The translations under genes and the position numbers were made by a program. 64,000 bases of DNA from Daucus carota subsp. sativus (Eukaryota; Streptophyta; Magnoliopsida; Apiales; Apiaceae): positions 30,715,598-30,779,597 of the forward strand of contig NC_030385.2 in assembly GCF_001625215.2 (NCBI RefSeq), given 5' to 3'. Of the stretch, positions 1 to 28,277 are shown piece by piece; the first letter of the stretch is position 1, and the number at the start of each line of letters is the position of its first letter. The notes under the pieces are model-generated. The model made no database searches and was not told the DNA's origin. It saw only the letters and a list, made by a program, of their open reading frames with translations.

Positions 1-1682
1 CTAAGCTTGATTTGTTATACATATAGTTCTGGTGTTTTTTTTTTTCGCCACGATATATAGTTCTGGTGTTAATATATTATGATACTAAGTTTTTGTAAAT
101 AAATGACAATCATGATCTGTTGATCTGTAGTAAATATGTTCTTAGGAAGACAAAATTGTCACATGCGATATGTACTCCCTCCGTCCCAGGGAGTAGTATA
201 CGCATGGTGTTGTGTGGAACGGAAGTTAGGAAGAAGTGTAATTGGTAAAGTTAAGTAGGAGAAGTGGGTAAAATGATGGGACCAACTAATATTTAATGTA
301 TAAAATGGGTATGGTGTGAGTAAAGTGGTGCGACCGCTAATATTTAAGGTATAAAGGAGGTGTAGTGGAAGGAAACAGTGGGTGTAAAGTTTTATATTAT
401 AAAATTTTATTGCTTTATGAATCTATACAATTGAATTAGATGTCCTAAAAAAGGAACCGTATAAAAAAATGAATGAGATGGGGGTATTGTTTGAGTGGTT
501 TATTTATTTGTATAAGTTGCATATGCTTTCGGACTTATTTTATTTTTAATAGTTTCCCTGTGCTGCGAGATATTAGTCCAATGTACTGTAATTGCTTTGT
601 TTAGATCTTCTAAATGAATTTTCAGTGTTGATATCAATGTTGCAGGTCTTAATTAGTTGTTTTCCGTGTTTAAAACGTTGAGAATAGATGTTTTGGTGAA
701 CATTTGATCATTTGAGATCGTGTGTTGCAATTATTTAAAATATATTTGAGACCTCTAATATATACATCTGGTTCACAGCTAAAACTGGCCCCTAGTATCA
801 TAGAAAAACCCTGGAAGATGCGAGTTTTATATATACCAAGTTTATGTATGTTCTGTTCATATATATTTTTGTATATTTTGGTTGGATTTATTTGTGTACA
901 GTTGTGTTTGTCTCAGTACACTCTTGCTGTTCTGTTTTTTGTAAATTTTTTGCAGTAATGCGTCTCTAAGTTTATATATTTTTAGCTCTATTTTCATCAT
1001 GTTTTGGTGACCTTGATTTCTTGTAACATATACACTCATTTGTGGCATTCATATATTGAGTTTATATGGACCTGTAAGATGTAGAATGAGTATCATCATC
1101 TGCAGTATATACTGCTAAAAATGGTCATAAATTTAATATCTACATAAATATTCTTATCCTGGTTTGTTTCTTTGACAGCATTATATGGATGTTTTCAGTT
1201 TAGTATTCATGTATAGGGGTGATATTTGATTTTAATATGACTCATGAACTGCAGTAATGAATGGTGACAGTAAATCCATAAGATTCTGCCTAATTTTTTG
1301 TTATAGTGGTTCTATTCCATTTCTCATAGCTTTGAAGTTCCCTTCCCGATTTTGTACAAGATGATTAGTGTGCGTTTGATGTGAGAAGGGCATTGATCGA
1401 GCTATGATTTTTAAGGGCCTGGTGTAAATTGTACAGGTCTAATGGGGTTTTGTATATGTTGTCAAATGCACTCAATAGAGTACATGTTGAAAAGCATGCA
1501 TAAGTAAAGTTCAATTATATTTTGCTTGCAAATTATATTCTTTTTGTGTGTTACAAACTTGGCAAATAAGAAACTTCTATTGGTTTGGGAAGGAACTAAT
1601 GATGACCTGTTAGATTGTTTACAACATTCTCTCTGCGATATCTATCTGATAAATCTCATAGTTATGCTTTTGGTGGACTCAG
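1..1682 (+). other. 5'-UTR intron of tandem gene copy 1 (left end cut off)
   Basis: The stretch aligns by eye along its whole length with the 5'-UTR intron of copy 2 (from about 3713 to 5417). Shared landmarks include the AAGCTTGATTT block near the start, the segment around 550-600 (matching 4140-4200) and the segment around 1340-1480 (matching 5060-5170). The acceptor is the AG at 1681-1682, eight bases before the start codon. The first exon and promoter of this copy lie left of the window. ORFs here are short and begin at non-ATG codons, so I call none. Confidence 0.75.
175..484. mobile_element. Stowaway-like MITE in intron of copy 1
   Basis: It begins CTCCCTCCGTCCC after a TA and ends in an imperfect inverted copy (GAGATGGGGG) before another TA. 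The interior (GGGACCAACTAATATTTAA and similar) resembles, in reverse orientation, the element at 10729-11031. About 310 bp. The right terminal repeat is degraded, so the exact end is uncertain. Confidence 0.6.
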
Positions 1683-1690
1683 AGTATCAA

Positions 1691-2170
1691 ATGGCAGGAG
1701 AGTATTCAGATTATGATGATGATTATTCAGGTGAACAACACTATGCTCTTGTTGACTATGGTACCACTGACCCAGAGACCAACTCGAAAAGTGAAGGATA
1801 TTCAGGTGAACAGCACCATGCTCTTGGTAACTATGGTACCAGTTACTCAAAGTCCTTGACTCAAAGTGGTGGAAAGGGGGTGAATGTGTATCAACAGACA
1901 TACCGTGCTAAGAATGAGGACAAACAGACTGGGAGCTATAAACGCTTCACTGCTAAGGACAAGGCGGTGGCAGGTGAACCCTTTGTGGATAGGTGTGGGA
2001 ATCGTGGTCACAAGGATGAGCACACCACATCTGCTACTTACAAAGTTGGTGACAAAAGAGGGTATACTGAGTACTACCGCGAGGAGAGGGTTAAGCATGT
2101 CGACTTTGACAAAAGAAGCAGGAGCAACAACAAAGCTGTTGGGTCCTACCGAAAATACCAAAAGTATTAG
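1691..2170 (+). CDS. Tandem Tyr-rich repeat protein, copy 1 (unknown function)
   Basis: A 159-residue protein of a family I do not recognise. The start at ATG 1691 is chosen because it is the codon conserved in all three copies and lies just after an intron acceptor; the open frame continues upstream only through intron sequence. The N-terminus has two related units of about 25 residues built on (Y/H)AL-x-x-YGT. A conserved core follows, from VNVYQQTYRAKNEDKQTGSY to the RVKHVDFDK block, and the tail is YRKYQKY. It has no signal peptide or membrane segment and is rich in Tyr, Lys, Asp, Gly and Ser, so it is probably disordered and soluble. Against copies 2 and 3, this copy has extra basic changes near the end (KRGYTE, DKRSRSN) and Cys in DRCGN. 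No catalytic motif is visible. Confidence 0.75.
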   Translation: MAGEYSDYDDDYSGEQHYALVDYGTTDPETNSKSEGYSGEQHHALGNYGTSYSKSLTQSGGKGVNVYQQTYRAKNEDKQTGSYKRFTAKDKAVAGEPFVDRCGNRGHKDEHTTSATYKVGDKRGYTEYYREERVKHVDFDKRSRSNNKAVGSYRKYQKY

Positions 2171-2834
2171 GTTTTACGAATCACCCTCCATTGGCATGCA
2201 GCCTGGGGGCTATCTATGTTTCCATCTTGACTTTTAGCTTCAGTCCACTACTGGGAACTACTTAATTAGCTTCTTAGTATCTGTGCTTTCGTTGGTTAAC
2301 TTGTGTGATGCAGATTTAGTTTGGGATATTACTAAGGATTTGGTTTCAGAACTGGCTTTGAAATCATTTTCTATCTGTTCTTAAACTGCTTTTGCTCTTG
2401 ATTAATTATCCTTGGTTGTAATTAGTTCGGGATCTTACATTAATCACTGCTGGGCCTCATACCTGATCATGTCAAACTTCCTCGCTTTCTACTTCATTAG
2501 CTTATTGCATGCACAATAGCTAAGCTAGAGTGCAAACTAGTGCATGCTTGGTGATCACTATATTTTAAGCCCGAACACAGCCCTAACAATTCACGGACAC
2601 AAGACATGCATGTGATATATTTTGATTGTATTAGTTACTGTACAATCTGATTGCCATTAATAAATCCAATCACAGAACTCTTAAGTAGAAAATATGGTTG
2701 GAACTGAGATAAGGAGGCGACGGCTAGTGGCAAGTTCTTGGCCTGCTCTGTGAACCTGTCCAGGGTTGGATAGTTTACAAGTAAATTCTGTGATATATAG
2801 GATCTCAATATCTTGCAAGATAAATTGTTTAGGT
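2171..2834. repeat. 3' flank of copy 1, duplicated after copy 2
   Basis: 3'-UTR and downstream sequence repeated, with small indels, at 5966-6673. Shared blocks include the ATTAGTTCGGGATCTTACAT segment, the GTGATCACTATATTTTAA segment, and the run from AAGGAGGCGACGGC to GGATCTCAATATCTTG. Homology stops at about 2834 and 6673, which marks the right edge of the duplicated unit. No gene seen. Confidence 0.75.
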
Positions 2835-3417
2835 TTTTTTCTTATTTTTTTATTTTAAAATTATTTTTTAATCATTTATAAAGTTATACTCCCTCCATCC
2901 CTCCCTCCTATTTTTTATTGAATGATTGGACACGGAGATAAAAATATATATATAAATTAGTGGAAAAGAGGAAGAAAAGGAGGTGAAGTGGTGGGATCGT
3001 TGATTTTAATATATAAAAAAAAGATATTGGAGTGGAAATAGTGTGAAAAAGAAATAAAAGTGAAGAAATTGTGGAAATATTATCTTTTGTAAGTTATAAA
3101 ATATAAAAAACGAGAAAAAAGGTTTTAAAAAAAAAAACTAGAAAGAAAATCTCAAAAAAAAAGTGTAAAAAAATAATGGTGACAAAAGGAATGATTTTAA
3201 AATTTTTATGCCAACATATACTCTATAGTAATTTTGTAGCGTACGACCAACATATCTTTGGCAAAATTTTGGGTTGAATATTTGCCGGCAAAAGGCTAAG
3301 ATTTTTAATCAATCAATCAAATATTCAACTTTCTGTCAAATAAAAATAAAAAAAATCAATCATTCAACTTCCCATTACAACACGAGCACAGTAACTAGTA
3401 CTGTAGTAACTTTCGTT
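2835..3417. other. AT-rich spacer with a degraded MITE
   Basis: From 2889 the sequence starts like a Stowaway end (CTCCCTCCATCC). The following A-rich stretch to about 3115 has the GTGGTGGGATCGTTGATTTTAATAT signature seen in the MITE at 175-484, but I could not place a right terminus. No supported ORF. Confidence 0.4.
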
Positions 3418-3554
3418 CAATCCAACGGTTAGAATCGGCTCATCTCACTCACTGTTAATTCTATAGTTACTTTACATTACAAATAACCTCAAAACTCCAC
3501 TACCCCTTCATTTTCACAGCAAAAGCCCTAGCATTTCCTCTTGTTTGTTCATCT
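3418..3554 (+). promoter_or_regulatory. Proximal promoter and leader exon of copy 2
   Basis: The block ATCCAACGGTTAGAATCGG at 3419-3437 is shared in altered form with copy 3 (8471-8496). The leader contains GCAAAAGCCCTAGCAT, also shared with copy 3 and resembling the telo-box type elements common in housekeeping-gene leaders. The exon ends at the donor ATCT|GTGAGT (3554/3555). The transcription start is not visible; about 3490-3510 is a guess. Confidence 0.6.
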
Positions 3555-3861
3555 GTGAGTTCTATTAACATAACTATTGCATATTCATCTTATCTTTACT
3601 CATATTCTCGTTTTATGTTAGTTCTATTTGTCTCGCTGTTATGTTGTTAATCATGTATTCAACTGTTTTTATGGTTTGTTATTTTGACCGTACAGTAGTA
3701 GATCATGTTCTGTTAAGCTTGATTTCTTATGCGTATAGTTATGGTGTTAATATACTGTGATAATAATTTTTTGTATATAACATGACAGTCATGATATGTT
3801 GATCTGTAAAATATGTTCATAGAAATACAAAATTGTCATATGCTTAATATGTACTGTTCTA

Positions 3862-4085
3862 CTCCCTCCGTCTGGCAAGTTCTTTACGGTCGGTGTTTGC
3901 ATATATTTAGAGACTCCTATGAAGTATAGTTCATAATGTTTTTTTAATTTTCTTTTTTTAATAAAAGTTTAAACGGCAAACAGTTTTATTTAAAATTAAA
4001 AAATTTAAAAATATTATGGAATTATACTTTATAGGACTCTCAAAAATCGTGCAAAAAGTAACGTAACGATCGACAGAGGAGGGAG
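3862..4085. mobile_element. Stowaway-like MITE in intron of copy 2
   Basis: Starts CTCCCTCCGTC and ends GAGGAGGGAG, flanked by TA on both sides; about 224 bp. The interior differs from the MITE in copy 1, so this is a different subfamily inserted independently. Confidence 0.75.
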
Positions 4086-4410
4086 TAGTGTATTTACCTG
4101 TATAAGTTGCAGATGCTTTCCGACTTATTTTATTTTTGATAGTTTCCCTGTGTTGCGAGATATTAGTCCAATGTACTGTAATCGTCTAGTTTAGATCTTC
4201 TTACTGAATTTTCAGCGTCGATATCTATGTTACAGGTCTTAATTTGTTGTTTTCCGTGTTAAAACTTGAAGAATAGATGTTTTGGTGAACATTTGAGATC
4301 GTGTGCTGCCAATTAATTAAAATATATTTGAGACCTCTATTTTATATATACATCTGGTTCACAGCTAAAACTGGCTCCTCGTATCATAGAAAAACCCTGG
4401 AAGATGCGAG

Positions 4411-4552
4411 TTTTGTGCACACAAGTTTATGTATATTCTGTTTATATGTGTTTGTATATTTTGGTTGGATTTATTTGTAGTTTTATGTACACAAGTTTAT
4501 GTATATTCTGTTTATATGTGTTTGTGTATATTTTGGTTGGATTTATTTATAC
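4411..4552. repeat. 70-bp tandem duplication in intron of copy 2
   Basis: The segment containing ACAAGTTTATGTATATTCTG occurs at 4421 and again at 4491, a period of 70. The copy 1 intron has only one unit (about 825-895), so the duplication arose after the genes separated. Confidence 0.85.
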
Positions 4553-5425
4553 ATAGTTCTGTTTGTCTCAGTACACTCCTGCTGTTCTGCTTTTGCAAAT
4601 TTTGTTGCTGTAATGCGTCTCTAGTTTATAAATTTTTGGCTCTATTTTCAGATCATGTTATGTTAACCTTGATCTCTTGTACATATACGGATATACCCTT
4701 GTTTGTGGCGTTCACATATTGAGTTAATATTGACCTGTAAATTTGTAATGTGACTAGTATCATCTGCAGTATATATACTGCTAAAAATGGTCATAAATTT
4801 AATATCTACATAAATATTCATATTCTGGTTTCTTTGACATCATTATGTTGACGTTTTCAGTTTAGTATCCATATATAGAGATGATATTGGATATTACTAT
4901 GAGACTGTCATGAAGTGTAGCAATTGTAGTACAAAATGGTGACACTAAATCCATAAGATTCTGCCTATTTTTTTATTTATTATTATTTTTTTGCCAACAG
5001 ATTCTGCCTATTTTTAGTTATAGTGTTCTATTCCATTTCTGGTAGCTTTGATGTTCACTTCCCTATTTTGTACAAGATGATTAGTGTGCGTTTGATGTTT
5101 GAAGTGCATTGAGCTATGATTTTCAAGGACCTGATGTATATCGTACAGGTCTGATGGGATTGTATTTGTTGTTAAATGCACTCAGTAGAGTACATGTTGA
5201 AAAGCTTGCATAATCAAAGTTCATCTACATTTTGCATTCAATTACATTTTGGTTGCAAATTACCTATTCTTTTTGTGTGTGATGAATTTGGCAAATAAGG
5301 AGTAACTTTTATTGGTTTGGGGAGGAACTAATTCTGACCTGTTAGATAGATTGTCTACACGTTCTCTCTGCGATATCTATCTGATAAATCTCATAGTTAT
5401 GCTTTAGGTGGACACAGAGTATCAA

Positions 5426-5965
5426 ATGGCAGGAGTGTATTCAGATTCTGATGATGAATATTATGTTCTTGATGATTATGAGACCGCTTACCCTGAGTCC
5501 ATGACGGGAAACGAAGACTGTTCAGATAATGAAGATTATGCTCTTGGTGACTATGGTACCACTGACTCAGAGACCAACTCGAAAAGTGAAGGATATTCAG
5601 GTGAACAGCACCGTGCTCTTGGTACCTATGGTACCACTTACTCAAAGCCCTTGACTCAAAGCGATGGAAAGGGGGTGAATGTGTATCAACAGACATACCG
5701 TGCTAAGAATGAGGACAAACAGACCGGGAGCTATGAGCGATTCACTGCTAAAGACAAGACGGTGGCAGGTGAACCCTTTGTGGATAGGTCTGGGAATCGC
5801 GGTTACAAGGATGAGCACACCACATCTGCTACTTACAAAGTTGGTGACAAAAGTGGCTATACTGAGCACTACCGCGAGGACAGGGTGAAGCATGTCCACT
5901 TTGACAAAAGCAGCAGCAGCAGCAACAAAGCTGTTGCGTCCTACCCAAAATACAAAAAGTATTAG
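5426..5965 (+). CDS. Tandem Tyr-rich repeat protein, copy 2 (unknown function)
   Basis: A 179-residue paralogue of the proteins at 1691 and 9813. The start at ATG 5426 (MAGVYS) follows the intron acceptor by eight bases. It is the longest copy, with three N-terminal units of 21-26 residues: YYVLDDYETAYPES..., YALGDYGTTDSETN... and RALGTYGTTYSKPL.... The conserved core follows (VNVYQQTYRAKNEDKQTGSY, FTAKDKTVAGEPFVDRSGN, TTSATYKVGDKSGYTE, RVKHVHFDK), then a short poly-Ser stretch and the tail YPKYKKY. The first unit is acidic. There is no signal peptide, membrane helix or enzyme motif. Neighbouring copies on the same strand show it arose by tandem duplication with copy 1. Confidence 0.8.
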   Translation: MAGVYSDSDDEYYVLDDYETAYPESMTGNEDCSDNEDYALGDYGTTDSETNSKSEGYSGEQHRALGTYGTTYSKPLTQSDGKGVNVYQQTYRAKNEDKQTGSYERFTAKDKTVAGEPFVDRSGNRGYKDEHTTSATYKVGDKSGYTEHYREDRVKHVHFDKSSSSSNKAVASYPKYKKY

Positions 5966-6673
5966 GTTTTACCAATCATCCTCCATTGGCTTGCAGCCTG
6001 GGGGCTATCTATGTTTTCATCTTGAATTTCACTACTTGGAACAACTTATCTAGCTTCTATCCGTACTTCTGTTGGTTAATATTGTGTGTTGCAGATTTAG
6101 TTTGGGATATTACTAAGGTTTGGTTTAAAAACTGGCTTCGAAATCATTTGTTTCCTTAGTTTCTCCATATTTGTTCTCTTTTGCTCTTGATGTTAAAATT
6201 CTTCGTTGTAATTAGTTCGGGATCTTACATTAATCACTGTTGGGTCTCATAGCCGATCATGTCATACTCCCTAGCGTCTACAGTACTACTTCATTAACTA
6301 ATTGCATGCACAACAGATAAGCTAGAGTGCAAACAAGTGGATGGATGCTTGCTTGCTTAGTGATCACTATATTTTAACCCCGAACACAGGCATCACAATT
6401 CACGGACATAAGCCATGCATATGATATAATTTGACTGTATTAGTAACTGTGCAATCTGATTGCAATTGATGAATCCAAATTCCAAACACGGAACTAAAAA
6501 AGAAGAAAACATGTCTGTCACTGAGATAAGGAGGCGACGGCCAGTGTAGCAAGTTCTTGTCCTGCTGTGTGACCTTGTCCAGGGTTGGATAGTATACAAG
6601 TAAATACTGTGATAGGATCTCAATATCTTGGGAGATAAGTTTTCTTTTTGGAAAACATAAATTGTTTAGGTTT
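5966..6673. repeat. 3' flank of copy 2, duplicated after copy 1
   Basis: Counterpart of 2171-2834. It carries a small insertion near 6636-6655 (TTTTCTTTTTGGAAAACAT) that copy 1 lacks. No gene seen; an ORF on the minus strand at 6393-6623 is not conserved in the copy 1 flank. Confidence 0.75.
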
Positions 6674-7005
6674 ACTTATTATCATTTTTAGCAAGTCACT
6701 TGTTTTAAAATAAAATATGTAAATAAATCACTTACTCCGTACTTTTTAAATATACGTGTGTGTGTATAAAAATAAAAACTTATTTTTATAAATAAAAAAT
6801 TATCAAACTCTCAAAATATTTAAATAATTAAATCACAGAAATAATATATAATCATAAAAATATAAGTTATTATTTTGATCAACAAGTTTATCAAAAGCTC
6901 TCCTATAAACTTTCACCAACGTTTATCAAAATACCGGCAAAGTTTATTATCACATACGGGGAGATTTTTTTTTTTTTTCATTTTTTTTAATACTAAATAT
7001 ACCGA

Positions 7006-7935
7006 GATCTTATACTTTAAAAGAGCTATTAACCAAAAAACCCAATCAACTTTTCATATTTTTGCTAAAAAAACTTTTAAACTTTTCTTTTCCTCAACAA
7101 CCCCAATAAATTTTACTAAATTTATGAAAAATTTAATCGAGTTACTTATCGCTGATATAGACTAATCATGATTAACACATCTTATGTGGCAACATGATTA
7201 AAATTAATCAAAAAACTAAAAAAATTTATTTTTGTGAAGTTTTACTACAAGATCTAAAATAAAATATAACTTACGATTTTGATACATACTTTCGTGTCTG
7301 TGAATTTTAACAAGTAATCATGATGATTAAATAGCTTACTTGACAAATTATAACATATCAAATTAATATAATAGAAGAGAAAACGATGGGAAAAAAAAAA
7401 TCAAACCTGGACAAGCACATCTTCACTTATTTTCATATTATTTTCCAAATCAAAATTATAAAATATGATACTATAAAATAACAATCCCCCAATTATCCTC
7501 AAGTAGAATATATATATATACATATGACTCGTAGAAGTTAGACGCTTAAGTAGAATAATTAATATAAATTAAGTTTAAATAAATTATAAAACGGTCAAAA
7601 TAATATATTCTTCGGTACAAATGATGAAAACACTTAGATCTTCCCTGTAGCGTGGCCTTATGAAATTATAATATTATGAAATATTAAAGGAAAAAATTAT
7701 ATTTATTAATGAATAGACAATATGTGGCACATACGTGTATAAAGAAATGCAAATAAGATAAAGATATTTAACAATTCAGATTGATAAATTTAACCGTGGT
7801 TTATTTTATATAATTTTATATAATTTAGTAAAATTTACTGGGGTTGTTAGTGAAATAAAAAATTTAAAAATCTTTTGGCAAAAAAGTAATAAGTTGATTG
7901 AGTTTTTTGGTTAATAACTTGCTTTAAAATTACCA
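7006..7935. mobile_element. Long inverted-repeat element
   Basis: The stretch around 7006-7117 (TTAACCAAAAAACCCAATCAAC, then CAACCCCAATAAATTTTACT) recurs inverted at about 7825-7935 (AGTAAAATTTACTGGGGTTG, then TTGATTGAGTTTTTTGGTTAA). The arms are roughly 110 bp with mismatches and enclose about 700 bp of AT-rich sequence without a supported ORF. Long arms suggest a non-autonomous Mutator-like or foldback element; I could not define termini or a target-site duplication. Confidence 0.65.
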
Positions 7936-8470
7936 TCTTTTAAGGGTAATCTTTTGGAACCATGTCGAAATCAAAAACAAGATAAATGATTATGGACCAT
8001 CATGCAGCAGCTCATCACCGCATACATGTACATATATTCACAGTTTTTCTTTACCATTTTGTTTACCTGCAGCATCTTTTATAAAATCGAGGCAACAAGG
8101 TAAGATGTCTAGCGTACAAGAGACTCCGAGTCTGGTTTGTTACTGTACCGCGATAAATTTATTGGCCGAAAATCACGTGAATTATTTTTTCACTCAGATT
8201 TTAATTTATAAATACGTACAGTTTTTATAAAAAAAAAAATCGATTATACAGTAACGTTTTCCTTTTCACTGGAGACACAGTATGACAGATTGACAGTATC
8301 ACATAGAGTACGTACGATTCACTTTCAAAATTTACTGTTACCGTATCTTCTGCTTTTCAAAAAATCTTATATTTACCGTGAAAATAGCTAGTTACCTTGC
8401 TTTGGATAAGGTAAAAATGTAAATACACCCGTCAAATCATTTTACAAATAAAGTAAATCAAAATATCTTT

Positions 8471-8630
8471 GATCCAACGGTTGATATCGAATCATCTAAC
8501 GAAACGCTTATCCCATTAACCACTCCCCTTGATAAATAACAACCCCCTTCTCCACAACTCTCTCGTTTACCACTGAGCTTCATTTTTACAGCAAAAGCCC
8601 TAGCATCCCCTCTCATCTCTTCATCAAACT
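8471..8630 (+). promoter_or_regulatory. Proximal promoter and leader exon of copy 3
   Basis: GATCCAACGGTTGATATCG at 8471-8489 matches the copy 2 promoter block. A TATA-like GATAAATAA lies near 8530. The leader shares ACAGCAAAAGCCCTAGCAT with copy 2. The exon ends at 8630 before GTGAGTTC, the same donor as copy 2. Confidence 0.6.
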
Positions 8631-9812
8631 GTGAGTTCATTTCTCCAAATCTTTTCATATTCTGCTTATACATATGCTTGTTGCGTTTATTTTTCTCTAT
8701 ATTTTATTCTATTTTTCTCATTTTGATGTGTTGATCATGTTTTTAACTGTTTGTTTTTTGTGAAATTATTCTTTCCGTACAGTTGTTGATCATGTTATGT
8801 TATGCTTGATTTTGTATGTGTTTACACACGAATCAGTTATGGTGATTTTACATGCTACTGGCTATTATTATTCATGATCTGCAAAATACATGTATTGAGA
8901 GGCACCGCGTGGTCATATTGATATTCGTAATATATGTGTATTTGTTTTTAGTACAGATGTAGATCATTCCTGCCTGGTTTGATATGTTTGATGAGTTTTG
9001 AGTTTTGATAAATTAGCTTTACAATATTTATTCTGGAATTCGAGAAAGCCATAATTGCGATGTATCGTGGACTGGTAGTTTAAGATTGTGTCGTTTAAAT
9101 GAATTTTATGCACCAGATCTGAATTTCTGAATGGCTTCAGTGCTGAGATCTGTTACTGCTAATTTTTTTGTCTCATTTGCTTGTTTACGGTGTATAAAAT
9201 ACAACGGAGAGTAGAGGTTTGGTTGAATGCTTGAAGTATCACTATGTTGTTTATCTTACGGCAGTTTGATATAGATACGTCCTCTGTATTTGGCAGGATC
9301 GTGATTTGTTACGTTTGATACCTTCTTTTTTGGTTATAGACTCGTAGTTTCTAACATTGTTTTTATATTTGCATTTAATATGACAATTACGATCTGCGAT
9401 ATAGTAATAAAAAGTGGTGATGATATATAGATGTACCTGATATGATTTCTTGATAGTGTATATGTGTAGCTTTGAGTTAGCATTATGAGCATTTTTACGT
9501 GTCTGATGTCTTTTCTTTAGGTATGAAATCATTGTGGAGTGTATATGTTTAGGTTAAAGCCTAACTATTCAGGACAAGTTAGGAAAAGATATAGTTGAAG
9601 CTTAATACATTTGCTCAAGTACGATCTGCTACTTTTCTGCTTGCACTCGGAAACTATTAGTTTTGTATATTATGCTTAAGTAGCTTTTATTGTTCAAAGC
9701 AACGGCTTAATAAACGTCTGTTGACCATATTAAACGTTAGATTGTATTCAATTATTCAAACACTCTGTGTTCTTCATATAAAACGTCTGACCTATGCTCA
9801 TGGTGGATGTAG
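8631..9812 (+). other. 5'-UTR intron of copy 3
   Basis: Donor GTGAGTTC at 8631; acceptor GATGTAG ends at 9812 directly against the start codon. It is 1182 bp, shorter and more diverged than the other two introns, though the 5' end (GATCATGTT, GCTTGATTT near 8780-8815) still matches. No MITE was seen in it. Confidence 0.65.
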
Positions 9813-10178
9813 ATGGCAGAAGAATATGCTCTCGGTGCCTATGGTACCAGTTACTCAAAGTCCATGACTAAAAGCAGTGGAAATCAGGTGAATGTGTATC
9901 AACAGACATACCGTGCTAAGAATGAGGACAAACAGACTGGAAGCTATGAGCGCTTCACTGCTAAGGATAAGACTGTGTGCGGTGAACCGTTTGTGGACAG
10001 GTCTGGGAATCATGGTTACAAGAGCGAGAACACCACATCTGCTACCTACAAAGTTGGTGACAAAAGCGGCTATACTGAGTACTACCGCGAGGACAGGGTG
10101 AAGCATGTTGACTTTGATAAGAGCAGCAACAGCAACAACAAAAGTGTTGGGTACTACTCCAAATACAACAAGTATTAG
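9813..10178 (+). CDS. Tandem Tyr-rich repeat protein, copy 3 (unknown function)
   Basis: A 121-residue paralogue, the shortest of the three and probably closest to the unexpanded form. It has a single N-terminal unit (YALGAYGTSYSKSMTKSSGN). The core is the same as in the others (VNVYQQTYRAKNEDKQTGSY, FTAKDKTVCGEPFVDRSGN, TTSATYKVGDKSGYTEYY, RVKHVDFDK), and the tail is YYSKYNKY. The initiator ATG follows the intron acceptor with no gap. The Tyr-x-Lys-Tyr-x-Lys-Tyr tail is kept in all three. Function unknown; the composition suggests a flexible, soluble protein. Confidence 0.8.
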   Translation: MAEEYALGAYGTSYSKSMTKSSGNQVNVYQQTYRAKNEDKQTGSYERFTAKDKTVCGEPFVDRSGNHGYKSENTTSATYKVGDKSGYTEYYREDRVKHVDFDKSSNSNNKSVGYYSKYNKY

Positions 10179-10728
10179 GTGTTGGCATCATCCCCCTTTG
10201 GCATGTATCCTGGGGGTTATGAAATGTTTTCTATCTGGATTTCTAGCCTAATGAATCTACTGCTAGCAACTACTTATCTAGCTTTTTGTTGATGGTACTC
10301 TTGTTGGTTTAAATTTGTGGAGCAGAGATTTTAACTGTGATCTTACTATTGTTTCAGTTTGAATTTGGCTAAATCATTTCTTGGTATCTTGGTATCTCTA
10401 TAATTGTCTTTATTCTGCTGTTGATGTTAACGTCAACAGATCTCTTCTTTTTTTTTTTTTGGTTAGGATTGTTTTGAAGTCTGTGTTTCTTGGAAACATA
10501 TTCTTATTAGCTTTCTGTTTTATATATAAATCCTGCTCCTATGTCTTCAGTTCTGCTAGATTTGTTAGACTTTTAACCATACACTACTACCAGTATCTAA
10601 TTTATTTGTTCTCAATCTGTTTGATGTTGAATATGTTCTGTGGTCATTGGTTGGAACTAGGTGATGTACGTGTTGCCTCCCACCATTTGTTTGCTACATC
10701 TCTGTGTGATAAAGTAGTTTAGGGACTA

Positions 10729-11031
10729 CTCCCTCTGTCCCTTTCATTTCTTTACGGCTACTATTTTGGGATGTCCCTCTCATTTCTTTACGTTACTATA
10801 AATAGTAAGTTTTTTCCATCATTACACCCACTATCTTCCCCCACTATCTCATATTTAACAATAAAAACTACTATTACACCCACAACTTTCCTCCACAATC
10901 TCAAATCTATTATTAAATATTGATAGGTCCCACCACTTTAACCACTTTTCATCTAACTTTACTCATTTTTCATATATTGTCTTGGTCTCCGTGTCCCCCT
11001 CCAATGTAAACAATTGAGGGGGACGGAGGAG
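10729..11031. mobile_element. Stowaway-like MITE downstream of copy 3
   Basis: Starts CTCCCTCTGTCC and ends GGGGGACGGAGGAG, flanked by TA at both ends; about 303 bp. The interior has the Stowaway-family phrases GTCCCACCAC and CACTATCTC. It lies about 550 bp after the copy 3 stop codon. Confidence 0.8.
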
Positions 11032-12433
11032 TAATACTTATGCTTGTAGTTCTTTGATGATTGGACTTGAGTTTAATGATTTTTGTATTAGCCATATTTT
11101 TTGTGAAGCCTTAGAGAAGCAGCAGAAAGTTCTAATCAAAAGCTAGTGCCATATTTGCCGATGGTCATGTAACCTTTGTGGATTGTAGTTGTGTATTGTG
11201 CATGTCCATCAATAATGGTTAATGAAACATGTCAACTGTACGATCAAAGATAACAGTGAGGACCTTAATAATTTATAGTGTTATGATATTCGTCGGGATG
11301 TTATATTTGGAGTTTAACATCTTTGTATAATCCTTAATCTCGTATATTTATAAATGTTATGCTGGCAGGGGTTGTCTATATGTATTACAAGTCCTATTCT
11401 GGGATGGAGTGATGCAGTTAGCATATGTAGCCAGTTGAATACATTTTCAGCTCTTCATATATCACGTAAGGTAAATGGTTGATATATATTGATTTCATGT
11501 AAGGGTACATTGTGGGTATTTCATAATCACTTATTTTAAAAAAGCTCTACTTTTTGTAAAAAAAAATTGTATGTTTTTATATATATTTTTTGATGTAAAT
11601 GTTAAAGAGTTATTTTATATTCCTTATTTGATAAAAATAAGGGATTATTTCAGAAAAATAAATTTACTCAAACTCATTTTCACTCGACTCGATTATTTTG
11701 ACTTTCCATTCATACAGGTTACGAATATATTGACTTGCTTGTTGCTTATACTCCTATCAGTGATTATGGCCAGCTCACTCCAAGAAACATGATCTTAGTT
11801 GACCGTCGCTAATACTGGAGTTAAGCCTAATGCGGGTTGATTGCATTTATCGGTCGTTCGTGATTTATTTCATTCAAGCTAAGTGATTTTGAGTTGAGTT
11901 TGGTAATGTTCAGTCTGAAATGGTTAAACGAAGCGGTCGAACAAAATCTTGTGTATATAAATCCAAAGCTTGTACTCCAAACATCTTCGAATTGAATCAT
12001 GCATCCTATAAACACGAGTTGGAATTCAACACATCATAGTCGTAACTATTCAAATTCTCAAACGAAAATTCAAATAAATTAAGATATAATGAAAAGATTT
12101 CTGTGGAGTCCAGCTGCTTGCGAGCAAGTCGACTCGAATCGCATGCCTAACTCGCTCTTTACAAATTTCCAGCAAGTTTATTTGTTAGGATGATCTCTGT
12201 TAACCATACACATGAAATGATCAAATTACTTGAAGCCAGCGGCCATCTCCTATCTAAACATCTAGCAATTAATACAGCAATACAATGAGGGTAAAAACAG
12301 CATATATTATTCAAATAAATTTACAAAACTCGATTCTAATCGGAGTCTATAACATTTTAAGCATATACTTTCTCCTTATGACATTCAAATAAACATATAC
12401 GGATCCTTCTTAAGTTAACTAATTATTCAGTCG
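11032..12433. other. Spacer between tandem family and MYB gene
   Basis: AT-rich sequence without a supported gene. The part nearest 12434 is the 3'-UTR side of the minus-strand MYB gene. Two ORFs of 62-73 codons (11571-11792 and 11827-12015) show no recognisable protein features. Confidence 0.5.
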
Positions 12434-13765
12434 CTAGTAAACATTGTATCTCAAAGCAAAGTCTTGGTATACTTGATCAGACTGATGAGGAGTTGATGCA
12501 GAATCCCAAGAATTGGAGGATGCAGAATTGGTGTCAAACTGATCATTAGGCCACCACATCATGCTATCTCTAGAACCTTCTATTTCCTTGAAACAATCAA
12601 ACTCGCCCATTCCCACTGCATTGTTGTTATTCATAAATTCATCAAGCTCCGGTTGGAATGTCGACGCTGATTGAACTCCCAAGTTCGATTGTTGTCCATC
12701 TGATTTCTGGACGACATACGAGTCCTGAACCTCGAAGCCTGTTGAAATGATCTGATCTAATTTCGGTTCATAGAGTTGATCATATTGGCCTTGGCCAGGC
12801 TGGGGAATCGTCATAGGCTGAAACAAAGGGTTTGAGTTGTCATTAAAAGATTGAAGGGTCTGCATCATCTTTTCTTGAAGAGGGTTCAGTTTAGGCCAAA
12901 CCGCAGGATTACTGAACACCGAAAAAGGGTTCTGGAGGTTCTGAAGCTGCATGTGGAGCTGAAGCCTTTCCATCGCGGAGTTGCTCAAGGAATTATCATC
13001 TGCGGGATCTGCAAGTTTCGTGTCCTGACTCGAAGAGGCGGATGGGGAATTCATGTTAAAGTTTTTGCGCTTTCCGAGCAACTTTTTCTTCAGTTTGGTG
13101 TTCCAGTAGTTTTTAATATCATTGTCAGTTCTTCCAGGCAATTGAGCAGCAATAATAGACCACCTAATAAAGTACCAAACAATCCGGCATCAGCAAGGCA
13201 CACAAAGATTAAAATGAAACGAGATCACAGAGTTATCATATTGGACCAATTACAACAGATTTAGTGTTAAAAATCCGTCAGTAAATAGGCTTATTTGTTG
13301 TAGTGCTACTTATGTGCGTATATTCTCAAAACAAAAGCTTCATGGACAACAACAAAGGACAAATAAAGGCATTAGTCAGGAATTAAAACCTGCTTCCAAT
13401 ACTGATATAGAGGCTGCATATGATGTTGTCTTCTTCCTCGGAGAATCCTCCGTGCTTGATATTAGGCCTCAAGTAATTCAACCATCTCAATCTGCAACTT
13501 TTCCCACACCTCTTCAACCCTGCCAATTAAAAAGAATTGTTAGCTAGGGTTTTCTACATTTTTTCTCTCAGTCACATGCATAACTCCAAATAGAAGAACA
13601 AATATAAGGAGACAAGGGCAGGTAGTTACCAATTTTCTGGGGAAGAGCGATCCAGTTATTGCCAGTGCCGAATGCTTCAATATAATCCTTGAGCTTCGCG
13701 TCTTCTTCAGGTGACCAGGGACCTCTCTTCACGTTCTCTTTGTCACAGCATGGAGCTCGGCCCAT
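12434..13765 (-). CDS. R2R3-MYB transcription factor, RAX/MYB36/MYB68 type
   Basis: Nuclear DNA-binding protein of 331 residues in three exons (minus strand): 13630-13765, 13390-13519 and 12434-13163. The joins fall at the two conserved R2R3-MYB positions. It opens [21 protein letters not shown]2 covers about residues 13-64 with Trp17, Trp38 and Trp58; R3 covers about 65-117, with Phe71 in place of the first Trp as usual, and ends near [38 protein letters not shown] and [18 protein letters not shown] are typical of subgroup 14 (RAX1-3, MYB36, MYB68, MYB84, MYB87), whose members control axillary meristems, Casparian strip formation and root development. The C-terminal part is Gln/Asn/Ser-rich, as expected of an activation region. 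The exact orthologue cannot be settled here. Confidence 0.93.
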
Positions 13766-25570: not shown

Positions 25571-28277
25571 CTAATTATTGGGATGATCTGGGTGATGATA
25601 TGGATGGTAAGTTGAAGATGTAGATGGTCTAGTCATTACCGGTCGCTGATGGTACTGCCCCTCCTGCATTTGAGGGATGTTCAATTCATTTTTAACAACC
25701 CGGACAACGTCAGGAGCATCTACCGGTGGCATAGCTGCGGAGAATTCTTGAGAGATATTCGATAGAGGCTGAACATTGTTGGGAGCATCTGCTGGTGACA
25801 TAGCTGCGGAGAATTCTCGAGAGATATTCGATAGAGGCTGAACATCGTCGGAAGCATCTACTGGTGACATAGCTGCGGAGAATTCTTTAGAGACATTGGA
25901 TAGAGCCTGAACATTGTTGGAAGCATCTACTGGTGACATAGCTGCCGAGAATTCTGTAGAGATATTCGGTAGAGCCTGAACATTGTTGGAAGCATCTACT
26001 GGCGACATAGCTGCGCAGAATTCTTGAGGGATATTCAATACATTATTTAGAGTCAGAACATTGTTGGAAGCATCAACCGGTAGCATTGTCTCGGGAGGGG
26101 TATAATCACGTGCCATATGTTGTTGATTGTATAGAGTCTCATGCAGCATTAATTCTCGGTTTTGGTCATAAAAGCCGTTTCCATGCATTTGAGGGATGAC
26201 CATCGACACGTGGTTCGGAATCATATAGCTGTTATAACCCAAATAGTTTGGATATGGAACTGGCCAAAGTTGCTGCTGCTGCTGATTAGCACTATAATCA
26301 ATCTCATGAGTATTATCCACATGAGTTACCTGATTAAAATGGCCGTCTCCAGAAACCATATATTCATCTACTCCGTGATCTTGATGAATATTTTCTTGCT
26401 GAGCAACACCATCATGAAAGTATTCAAAGGGCTCCTGAAATTGATCATTAGCTTCACCTTCCTCGAGATCATTAGCCTCATCTTCCTCAAGATTATTAGC
26501 CTCACCATCAAATGTAGCATTTTTTGATCTATGTGATTTATTCTTGTAAATCTTATATAAAACGTAGTCATCCAGCTAGGCAAGAAAAGACAGAAACGAA
26601 TGATCAGATATATTAAAGGAAATCATGAATAGCTTCGGTAATTTTATCTACTGTAGTATTACAATGTACATAGTCGCGTACCTTCATGCACGTTTTAGAA
26701 GATTTAGCTGGCGCGGACCGGATTTTTCCAGCAGAATTTACCGGTTTTTCTTGTAGTGTGGAGGGAGGAAATTCATTAGCTCTATATTCTTTCATAATCC
26801 ACTCTGTTTTAAATGATGTCTTATGAGTTCCTTGAAAGTATACCAAGGTCTTTACAACCCCAACACCCCCCTGAGGAGATGGGATGGGTTTATCGGCACC
26901 AGTTGCCTTCCAATAGCCGTTCCCTGCCATGCGGTTCGGTCGCTTTCCCATCTCATACTTCTTCTGCCTCGGGGAGAGAAAGTACCACTCGCTATCATTA
27001 GCTGCTGCATACTTTGCTGTGTAATATCACACTAAATTAGTACGACTAATTAGCGAAATTATCCCCACTCAATTTTTAGAATCCAAATAAACTTCGACAG
27101 TCTCAAGAAATTCTTAACATGACTATGTACTCTCGGGTAGTCAAGTGTCCTGCGTAAACTTACCTGCTTCATTACAGGGTTAACAGGTGTCTCATGTCTG
27201 CAAAACTGCAAGCAGAAAATATTGAAGTAACATGCATATATAACAGCCAGCCTAATGATACAATCTTCTATCGATATGAGACTTTTGAGGTTCGATATGA
27301 TGATTAGGGCCGGCCCTGAAGTTGACCAGATCTCACGCAAATTTAGTTTTTGGGAACCTAATTAACGCATATATACATCACATATTTCATGATTTATATA
27401 TCAAAAGATATCGATATTAAAATTTTAGTCATCGATCTAAGTTCGGGGAGTCCGGATCCTCTGTCTCCTTTTTGTGTCCCCTTATATGTCTCCTCTTTTT
27501 ATTGGTCAGTTACTTAACCTGCACGTGAATTATAGTTTCTCTTTATTCTTTCTCTAATAGTTTATCACTCGCACGATGTGCCTCACAAGCACATACAAAT
27601 ACTCTGTCTAAAATTTCTCCCGAACAGCTCTTATGCATTTTACTCTTCCGTGTACCAAATCCAGCCTTTTCAACATATGTTTTGTAAAACATGTAAGCAT
27701 CTATTGCCAATGCCATTCTTGCAATTATTAATTATGTGCATGTTGATTAATACTTTGTAAGTTGACCGTTACCAAAATTAATGCATGGTTTAAGAAGAGA
27801 TGATCACCGTAACATATACATATGTCAGCTTAGGCAGATAGCATGCATAATAATACAAGAAACAGAAAACAAAGCAGTACCTAAAGAAAATAATAAAATT
27901 AACAGGAAACTCGGTGATCACAGACCTGATAGGTAAAAGGGGCTTTCTCTGTAGATATCAACATCGTGAATTCGGCTAGGATGGGGTGGTTTGTTCTGTA
28001 TTTTCCTCATCAGATACTCCACAATAAGTTCTTCATCAGTTGGCTTAAACCGAAAACCTGGTGGAAAACTTTGAAGATATGCATCAATTTCTGAAGCGTA
28101 ATCATTAGAGTACTTCTGGAGCACCAAGGCTGTCGAATTCTGGTTTTCGGGTATTGGCATGGCGGCCGAATTCCGATTGTCGCTCATTGCTGGTTGATTC
28201 TGGTTTTCAGTATTACAGAAATTTGCTGCGGAAGTGGTTTCGAAAGTGGTTTTAGTTTCCATCTTCATCTTCTCCAT
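25571..28277 (-). CDS. NAC transcription factor with repeat-rich C-terminus
   Basis: Plant-specific nuclear DNA-binding protein, 463 residues in three exons (minus): 27926-28277, 26682-27016 and 25571-26575. The splice positions fit the usual three-exon NAC gene. Subdomain A (FPPGFRFKPTDEELIVEYL) starts only at about residue 71, after an unusual Asn/Thr/Ser-rich N-terminal extension. Subdomains C and D follow as EWYFLSPRQKKYEMGKRPNR, MAGNGYWKATGADKPI and TEWIMKEYR; E is LDDYVLYKIYKNK. A Lys/Ser/Pro-rich insert of about 30 residues separates D from E. The tail has an acidic EAN(D/N)-LEE repeat, a Gln run and five to six copies of a 23-residue repeat (about residues 393-517). No membrane helix is seen at the end. 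Target genes cannot be told from sequence. Confidence 0.93.
25712..26086 (-). repeat. 69-nt coding tandem repeat in NAC tail
   Basis: Encodes successive units of about 23 residues of the form SPVDASNNVQALSNVSKEF plus SAAM. Four are full length and close to identical; a degenerate one with a 4-residue insertion precedes them and a partial one follows. All keep the frame. Confidence 0.92.

Follow-up and report, generated by a model that had tools for sequence, protein, structure and literature searches.

The carrot genome (Daucus carota subsp. sativus, NCBI RefSeq assembly GCF_001625215.2) holds what is, judged from its sequence, a family of five intact genes arranged in tandem, which encode small, very hydrophilic, Tyr-rich proteins. 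Three of these genes, g1, g2 and g3, are located in the window, the 64,000-nt stretch of contig NC_030385.2 analyzed here (positions 30,715,598 to 30,779,597), while two more, gA and gB, are located upstream of it. Their predicted products combine a core that appears to be under purifying selection with a head in which the number of repeated units ranges from 0 to 4. We tentatively interpret them as hydrophilin-like proteins in which head and tail may adjust the interactions of a partner-binding core.

A tandem cluster of five genes

The genes of the cluster are as follows, with positions in the window given for g1 to g3.

1691..2170, + strand: g1 coding sequence, ATG to TAG, 159 amino acids, two head units
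5426..5965, + strand: g2 coding sequence, ATG to TAG, 179 amino acids, three head units
9813..10178, + strand: g3 coding sequence, ATG to TAG, 121 amino acids, one head unit
C5:30710121-30710543 (L006:4122-4544): gA, 140 amino acids, upstream of the window, from the genome search
C5:30711768-30712325 (L006:5769-6326): gB, 185 amino acids, upstream of the window, from the genome search

Each of g1, g2 and g3 is one open frame, and the three are 73-82% identical across aligned parts. Pairwise tblastn comparisons among them gave E values of 6e-78 to 3e-58, well past chance. Of seven first-look candidates scored in a search of the carrot genome with g3, five were matches with E <= 10, and these five fall inside a 16-kb stretch of a single contig. 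The same search with gA recovered the same five genes and one chance match; the place it matched on C3 (E 0.37) contains three stops and was discarded as chance. Counts from these genome searches are lower bounds for large families. The order along the chromosome is gA, gB, g1, g2, g3, with 0, 4, 2, 3 and 1 head units, respectively. A first-pass annotation of this DNA had described a three-gene tandem family; its three intact same-strand paralogues are confirmed, and its count was incomplete, since gA and gB bring the family to five.

Head units, core and tail

Genes g1, g2 and g3 share both the core QQTYRAKNEDKQTGSY...RVKHV-FDK and a Tyr/Lys-rich Y-x-K-Y-x-K-Y tail, as had been claimed, and gB carries the tail as well (4/5 genes). 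A six-copy repeat family (D2) with 75-nt spacing accounts for the heads in the window: two, three and one copies were found in g1, g2 and g3, the same unit numbers as originally annotated, and the other copies are 62-72% like the 50-nt reference.

1736..1885, + strand: g1 head, two units with 75-nt spacing, starting at 1736 and 1811
5456..5680, + strand: g2 head, three units with 75-nt spacing, starting at 5456, 5531 and 5606
9819..9893, + strand: g3 head, one unit, starting at 9819
1898..2113, + strand: g1 conserved core, 72 codons, purifying selection by dN/dS
5693..5908, + strand: g2 conserved core, 72 codons, purifying selection by dN/dS
9906..10121, + strand: g3 conserved core, 72 codons, purifying selection by dN/dS; low-confidence beta-strand prediction by AlphaFold2 (AF2)

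The g2 protein exceeds the g1 protein by 20 amino acids (60 nt net), slightly short of a full 75-nt unit. In translations read by eye, gB has four head units of the EYSDD[ED]SY type, the first being QYSDDESY, and gA has none. Across the five genes the head units are Tyr/Ser-rich and mostly acidic. An internal repeat within the core (TYRAK.. versus TYKVG..) seemed plausible by eye and was rejected: its halves were aligned against 2000 shuffles in gA, gB and g3, the genes covered by this test, with p values of 0.34, 0.13 and 0.72, respectively.

Sixteen codons (VNVYQQTYRAKNEDKQ) at 1880-1927, 5675-5722 and 9888-9935 are identical in g1, g2 and g3 including synonymous sites, in contrast to later core codons, which often differ among these genes. 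Gene conversion or constraint at the nucleotide level is a possible cause of this identity.

Selection on the core and age of the copies

The ratio of nonsynonymous to synonymous substitution rates (dN/dS) of the 72-codon core was 0.07-0.33 by the Nei-Gojobori method (NG86) and 0.11-0.39 by maximum likelihood (ML) in all ten pairs of the five genes. Outside the core, NG86 values were 0.47-2.86; noncore ML values with gA were unstable, with synonymous divergence (dS) of 6 to 43, and were not used. The bootstrap upper bound of the corresponding ratio of proportions (pN/pS) was below 1 for the core in 10/10 pairs, while the noncore interval spanned 1 in nine of them, the exception being gA-gB (0.40-0.94). 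Core and noncore differed by Fisher's test (p < 0.05) in seven of the ten pairs, which are not independent of each other. Over whole coding sequences, dN/dS was 0.44-0.48 for g1-g3 and 0.26-0.65 for g2-g3. Differences within the core were most frequent at third codon positions in every pair, so the sense frame is the constrained frame. One antisense open reading frame (ORF) of 79-99 amino acids overlaps each gene of the window, and the same third-position bias suggests that these are by-products:

1662-1901, - strand: antisense ORF overlapping g1
5397-5696, - strand: antisense ORF overlapping g2
9855-10106, - strand: antisense ORF overlapping g3

By sequence divergence, g1 and g2 are recent duplicates. 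Their flanks and introns are 79-88% alike in blocks of 124-962 nt, and their core dS is 0.16-0.18; the likeness of this pair alone therefore says little. The predicted introns of g3 and g2 align over a 127-nt block near the start (76%) and a 23-nt piece; no aligned block was found between g3 and the g1 intron in a compared stretch that lacked the g1 intron start. Core dS from g3 to g1 and g2 is 0.37-0.58, and values for gA and gB range from about 0.7 to 2. These estimates make g3 older than g1 and g2, with gA and gB older still. In an unrooted core tree the g1+g2 split had a support of 0.55 and the gA+gB split 0.81. Besides the leader and splice signals described below, blocks are kept in the 3' untranslated region (UTR). 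In the g1-g2 pair the noncore part has a synonymous divergence of about 0.04, below that of the core; these values come from just 2 and 7 changes.

Leader exons and predicted introns

A single-exon coding sequence is supported for g1, g2 and g3. Upstream, the leader motif ACAGCAAAA[AG]CCCT was found in all five genes, with a GTGAGT donor starting 35-43 nt past the motif start in each; gA has an additional GTGACT right before this donor. An AG is located 0-12 nt ahead of every ATG (acceptors were picked by eye).

1..1682, + strand: g1 predicted 5'-UTR intron, in-window part, from shared donor and acceptor (total length about 1.85 kb, with the donor some 160 nt before the window start)
3516..3554, + strand: g2 5'-leader exon, portion between the motif ACAGCAAAAGCCCTAGC (its g2 copy of the leader motif present in 5/5 genes) and the donor
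about 3555..5417, + strand: g2 predicted 5'-UTR intron, from shared splice signals
8588..8630, + strand: g3 5'-leader exon, portion between the leader motif (5/5 genes) and the donor
8631..9812, + strand: g3 predicted 5'-UTR intron, from shared splice signals

The predicted leader introns measure about 0.2, 0.42, 1.85, 1.86 and 1.18 kb in gA, gB, g1, g2 and g3, respectively. They contain 6-51 ATG triplets, so splicing would be required for normal translation. Introns in the 5'-UTR are supported in all five genes by the shared signals, and the earlier description of single-exon coding sequences behind long 5'-UTR introns agrees with this prediction. The intron-enhancement motif TTNGATYTG gives no sign of enrichment: it matches exactly once across the five introns, in gA, versus 12 times in the window on both strands.

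A 70-nt tandem duplication is present within the g2 leader intron (4409-4548), and the g1 intron has one copy of it. Ends of miniature inverted-repeat transposable elements (MITEs) of the CTCCCTCCGTC type, which we take to be Stowaway-like, were recognized by eye in the g1 intron (about 175-490), in the g2 intron (3862-4088) and after g3 (10728-11034). Two related copies are located upstream of gA (L006 about 2143-2455 and 3395-3700), one of them near the gA promoter.

Protein properties and predicted structure

The grand average of hydropathy is -1.34 to -1.63 in the five proteins, and their Tyr content is 11.2-14.1%. Gly makes up 7.6-10.7% of gB, g1, g2 and g3, and neither Ile nor Trp occurs in g1-g3. 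In a charge-hydropathy comparison all five proteins fall in the disordered region, and their longest hydrophobic runs are 2-3 residues. The head net charge is 0, -8, -15 and -18 with one, two, three and four units (g3, g1, g2 and gB, respectively), and -1 in gA, which has no units; core and tail are net positive in all five.

AF2 modeling of whole g3, using three input sequences, gave a mean predicted local distance difference test score (pLDDT) of 37.7. With core and tail alone the score was 55.1 (models from 29.5 to 55.1), and strands were placed at 17-22, 30-33, 39-42, 49-56 and 59-65, with block means of up to pLDDT 75. According to these models, which are weak evidence either way, the core may adopt a small beta fold; fold comparison of the putative core fold gave no match.

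Searches for relatives

No accepted Pfam match was obtained for any of the five proteins (E up to 10 for g1-g3 and up to 1 for gA and gB), NCBIfam and PHROGs gave only chance-level matches for g1-g3, and PDB sequences gave no family match for g3 or a five-gene profile. The earlier view that these proteins cannot be placed in any known family holds within these searches. Several candidates were discarded: Pfam RRP7 for gA (E 0.023; 15.2 bits, below the cut-off of 23.3), an NCBIfam terpene-related family for g1 (E 0.06) and FldB for g3 (E 0.05), both far below cut-off, a PHROG kinase (E 0.098) and an unknown PHROG (E 1.5) for g2, both chance, and, with the five-gene profile as query, a PDB PII protein (E 1.4). 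With the three-gene profile or g2, 59 pattern matches in viral contigs and 237 in genome contigs yielded no confirmed relative, and plasmids yielded no relatives; these collections cover viruses, prokaryotes and plasmids and hence serve as a negative control only. The family itself was not found in the literature by topic or by core peptide strings, in a search whose scope excluded supplements and most subscription papers and which does not imply absence from print. It may well be carried elsewhere as "uncharacterized protein".

On this sequence evidence, we class the cluster as an orphan plant family whose general kind is known and for which searches of Pfam, NCBIfam, PHROGs and PDB gave no described relative. 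The first-pass annotation had gone further and proposed an undescribed system; nothing points past a gene family.

Interpretation

Our best explanation, a tentative one, is that the cluster encodes hydrophilin-like, mostly disordered intracellular proteins with a partner-binding core and with a head and tail that tune charge and multivalency. The core would contact a protein or RNA, either as a binding segment that becomes folded in contact with its partner or as a small beta fold of marginal stability. Head units and tail would alter net charge and multivalency, such that weak interactions of a condensate type or protective kind may be tuned in strength from one paralogue to the next. Variants would have arisen by tandem duplication together with in-frame gain or loss of head units, and the leader introns may favor steady expression. 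Location, partner and expression are what we infer here.

A number of observations weigh against this interpretation. The core was chosen because it looked conserved in g1-g3, and dN is lower there by choice. The fresh test consists of the seven pairs with gA or gB, which are free of this selection bias except for alignment; core dN/dS stayed within 0.07-0.39 in these pairs too, which supports the proposed combination of a conserved core and a modular head that varies. The core/noncore contrast is weak for gA versus g1-g3 (Fisher p 0.098, 0.065 and 0.032). The dN/dS comparison suggested with the original annotation has two sides: ratios are low for the core, and whole-coding-sequence values for g1-g2 are 0.83-1.11, which limits constraint to the core. 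Relaxed constraint in one of g1 and g2 is possible from these values. In addition, gA has no head unit, has a different, longer tail and contains 5.7% Gly, under the hydrophilin limit of 6%. As to the suggested check for disorder, the charge-hydropathy result stands for all five proteins, and the five short strands of the low-confidence AF2 model count against a wholly disordered core. Because both models had just three similar sequences as input, their low pLDDT is weak evidence as well.

Hydrophilins are defined by a Gly content above 6%, an average hydrophilicity above 1 and expression that correlates with osmotic stress or dehydration. The cluster proteins presumably contain more tyrosine than dehydrins do. 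They resemble the hydrophilin and late embryogenesis abundant (LEA) class in strong hydrophilicity and predicted disorder, and four of the five, all except gA, also in having Gly above 6%, following the class description in the part of PMC4190154 used here. They differ from it in having no LEA or dehydrin match, a strongly constrained core and neither of two stress-responsive promoter elements close upstream, as detailed below. A second comparison, by description only, is with the wholly disordered proteins of Arabidopsis, of which the consulted portion of PMC11817481 lists 56 in 27 categories; few were assignable to known families and the rest were grouped by mutual similarity. Those proteins are likewise short, commonly 100-200 amino acids (PMC11817481, same portion), whereas the modeled carrot core is possibly part-folded.

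Alternative explanations

One possibility, to which we give somewhat less credence than to the hydrophilin-like interpretation, is that five short strands make the core a small, stable beta domain, with disorder confined to head and tail; this would then be a folded binding-domain family and not a hydrophilin. In the core-plus-tail model 22/93 residues have a pLDDT of 70-90, and residues invariant among the five paralogues make up 20/29 positions inside strands versus 20/43 outside, a difference given without a significance test.

It is unlikely, though worth considering, that these genes form a cell-proliferation family with a G2/M transcription peak driven by MYB3R through an element like the mitosis-specific activator (MSA). 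Four of the five genes (g1, g2, g3 and gB, but not gA) have a sense AACGG 92-112 nt before the leader motif; the full MSA consensus is matched in g1 and g2, and g3 is one base off. In the portion of PMC10905365 used here, MSA-like elements are described as sense-strand AACGG sequences located shortly before the start. The surrounding 18-nt footprint, ATCYAACGGTTRRWATCG, occurs at three places in the genome, all in the cluster, and not in a reversed control, although the pattern was written from g1, g2 and g3 themselves.

3420..3437, + strand: g2 upstream AACGG (MSA-like) element within the 18-nt footprint
8472..8489, + strand: g3 upstream AACGG (MSA-like) element, same 18-nt footprint

Compared with the g3 footprint, the g2 match is clear (15/18, shuffle maximum 13), whereas g1 is borderline and merely equals the best shuffle (14, maximum 14), and gA and gB are at shuffle level. 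Given the recent duplication that gave rise to g1 and g2, these matches count as roughly two observations. Over the whole window, AACGG occurs 60 times on both strands. An undescribed family that unites a new small beta fold or fold-on-binding core, a variable acidic head and a cell-cycle tie via the cluster-specific MSA-like element seems rather improbable to us.

We also consider it improbable that this is a classical dehydration-type LEA or dehydrin cluster induced by abscisic acid (ABA) or drought. Hydrophilicity in all five proteins, Gly above 6% in four and predicted disorder would fit such a cluster, yet no LEA or dehydrin Pfam model matched any of the five (E up to 10 for g1-g3 and up to 1 for gA and gB). 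The exact Lys-rich K-segment pattern (core KIKEKLPG) and the Y-segment, both searched as simple patterns, were absent from all five, and a run of four or more Ser is present in g2 only. In 5/5 genes, the region reaching from 600 nt before to 80 nt after the leader motif contains neither the ABA-responsive element (ABRE, ACGTGKC) nor the dehydration-responsive element (DRE, RCCGAC); a bare ACGTG core is found upstream of gA and g3. The promoter picture tends to disfavor classical dehydration LEA genes and hints weakly at proliferating cells.

Repeated units and a Tyr-rich tail could also suggest a secreted Tyr-rich cell-wall protein or a precursor of short cyclic or signaling peptides, which is very improbable given that none of the five proteins has a hydrophobic N-terminal segment; no signal-peptide-like segment was found in the first 40 residues (best 10-residue mean hydropathy <= 0.36). 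Non-functional tandem ORFs or young pseudogenes, alike through recent duplication alone, would explain the long similar blocks flanking g1 and g2 and their whole-coding-sequence dN/dS of about 1, but this explanation is largely refuted and hardly credible in view of the core dS of the old copies, open frames throughout, low core dN/dS and the retained leader, splice signals and 3'-UTR blocks.

Neighboring genes

The cluster is flanked on one side by two genes related to CAP/PR-1 and on the other by one similar to R2R3-MYB.

L007:6664-7260, - strand: CAP/PR-1-like gene, Pfam CAP
L007:8487-8987, - strand: CAP/PR-1-like gene, Pfam CAP
12434-13141, - strand: R2R3-MYB-like gene, sub-threshold Pfam Myb match

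In Arabidopsis, we assume, a CAP gene adjoins MYB36 with no such cluster between them. Further along the window, a 69-nt (23-amino-acid) tandem repeat of 4.7 copies is located at 25715-26040 within an ORF at 25571-26359 on the - strand, apparently in the C-terminal part of what we take to be a NAC-type gene.

Significance

Plant genomes contain many unnamed families of small disordered proteins. The carrot cluster offers a compact natural series in which one constrained core is combined with 0, 1, 2, 3 or 4 Tyr/Ser-rich head units in a single genome. Such a series would permit a clean test of the effects of repeat number and charge on a disordered protein. If it is true that other plant orders lack relatives, the cluster would in addition provide a good example of a lineage-restricted family under selection.

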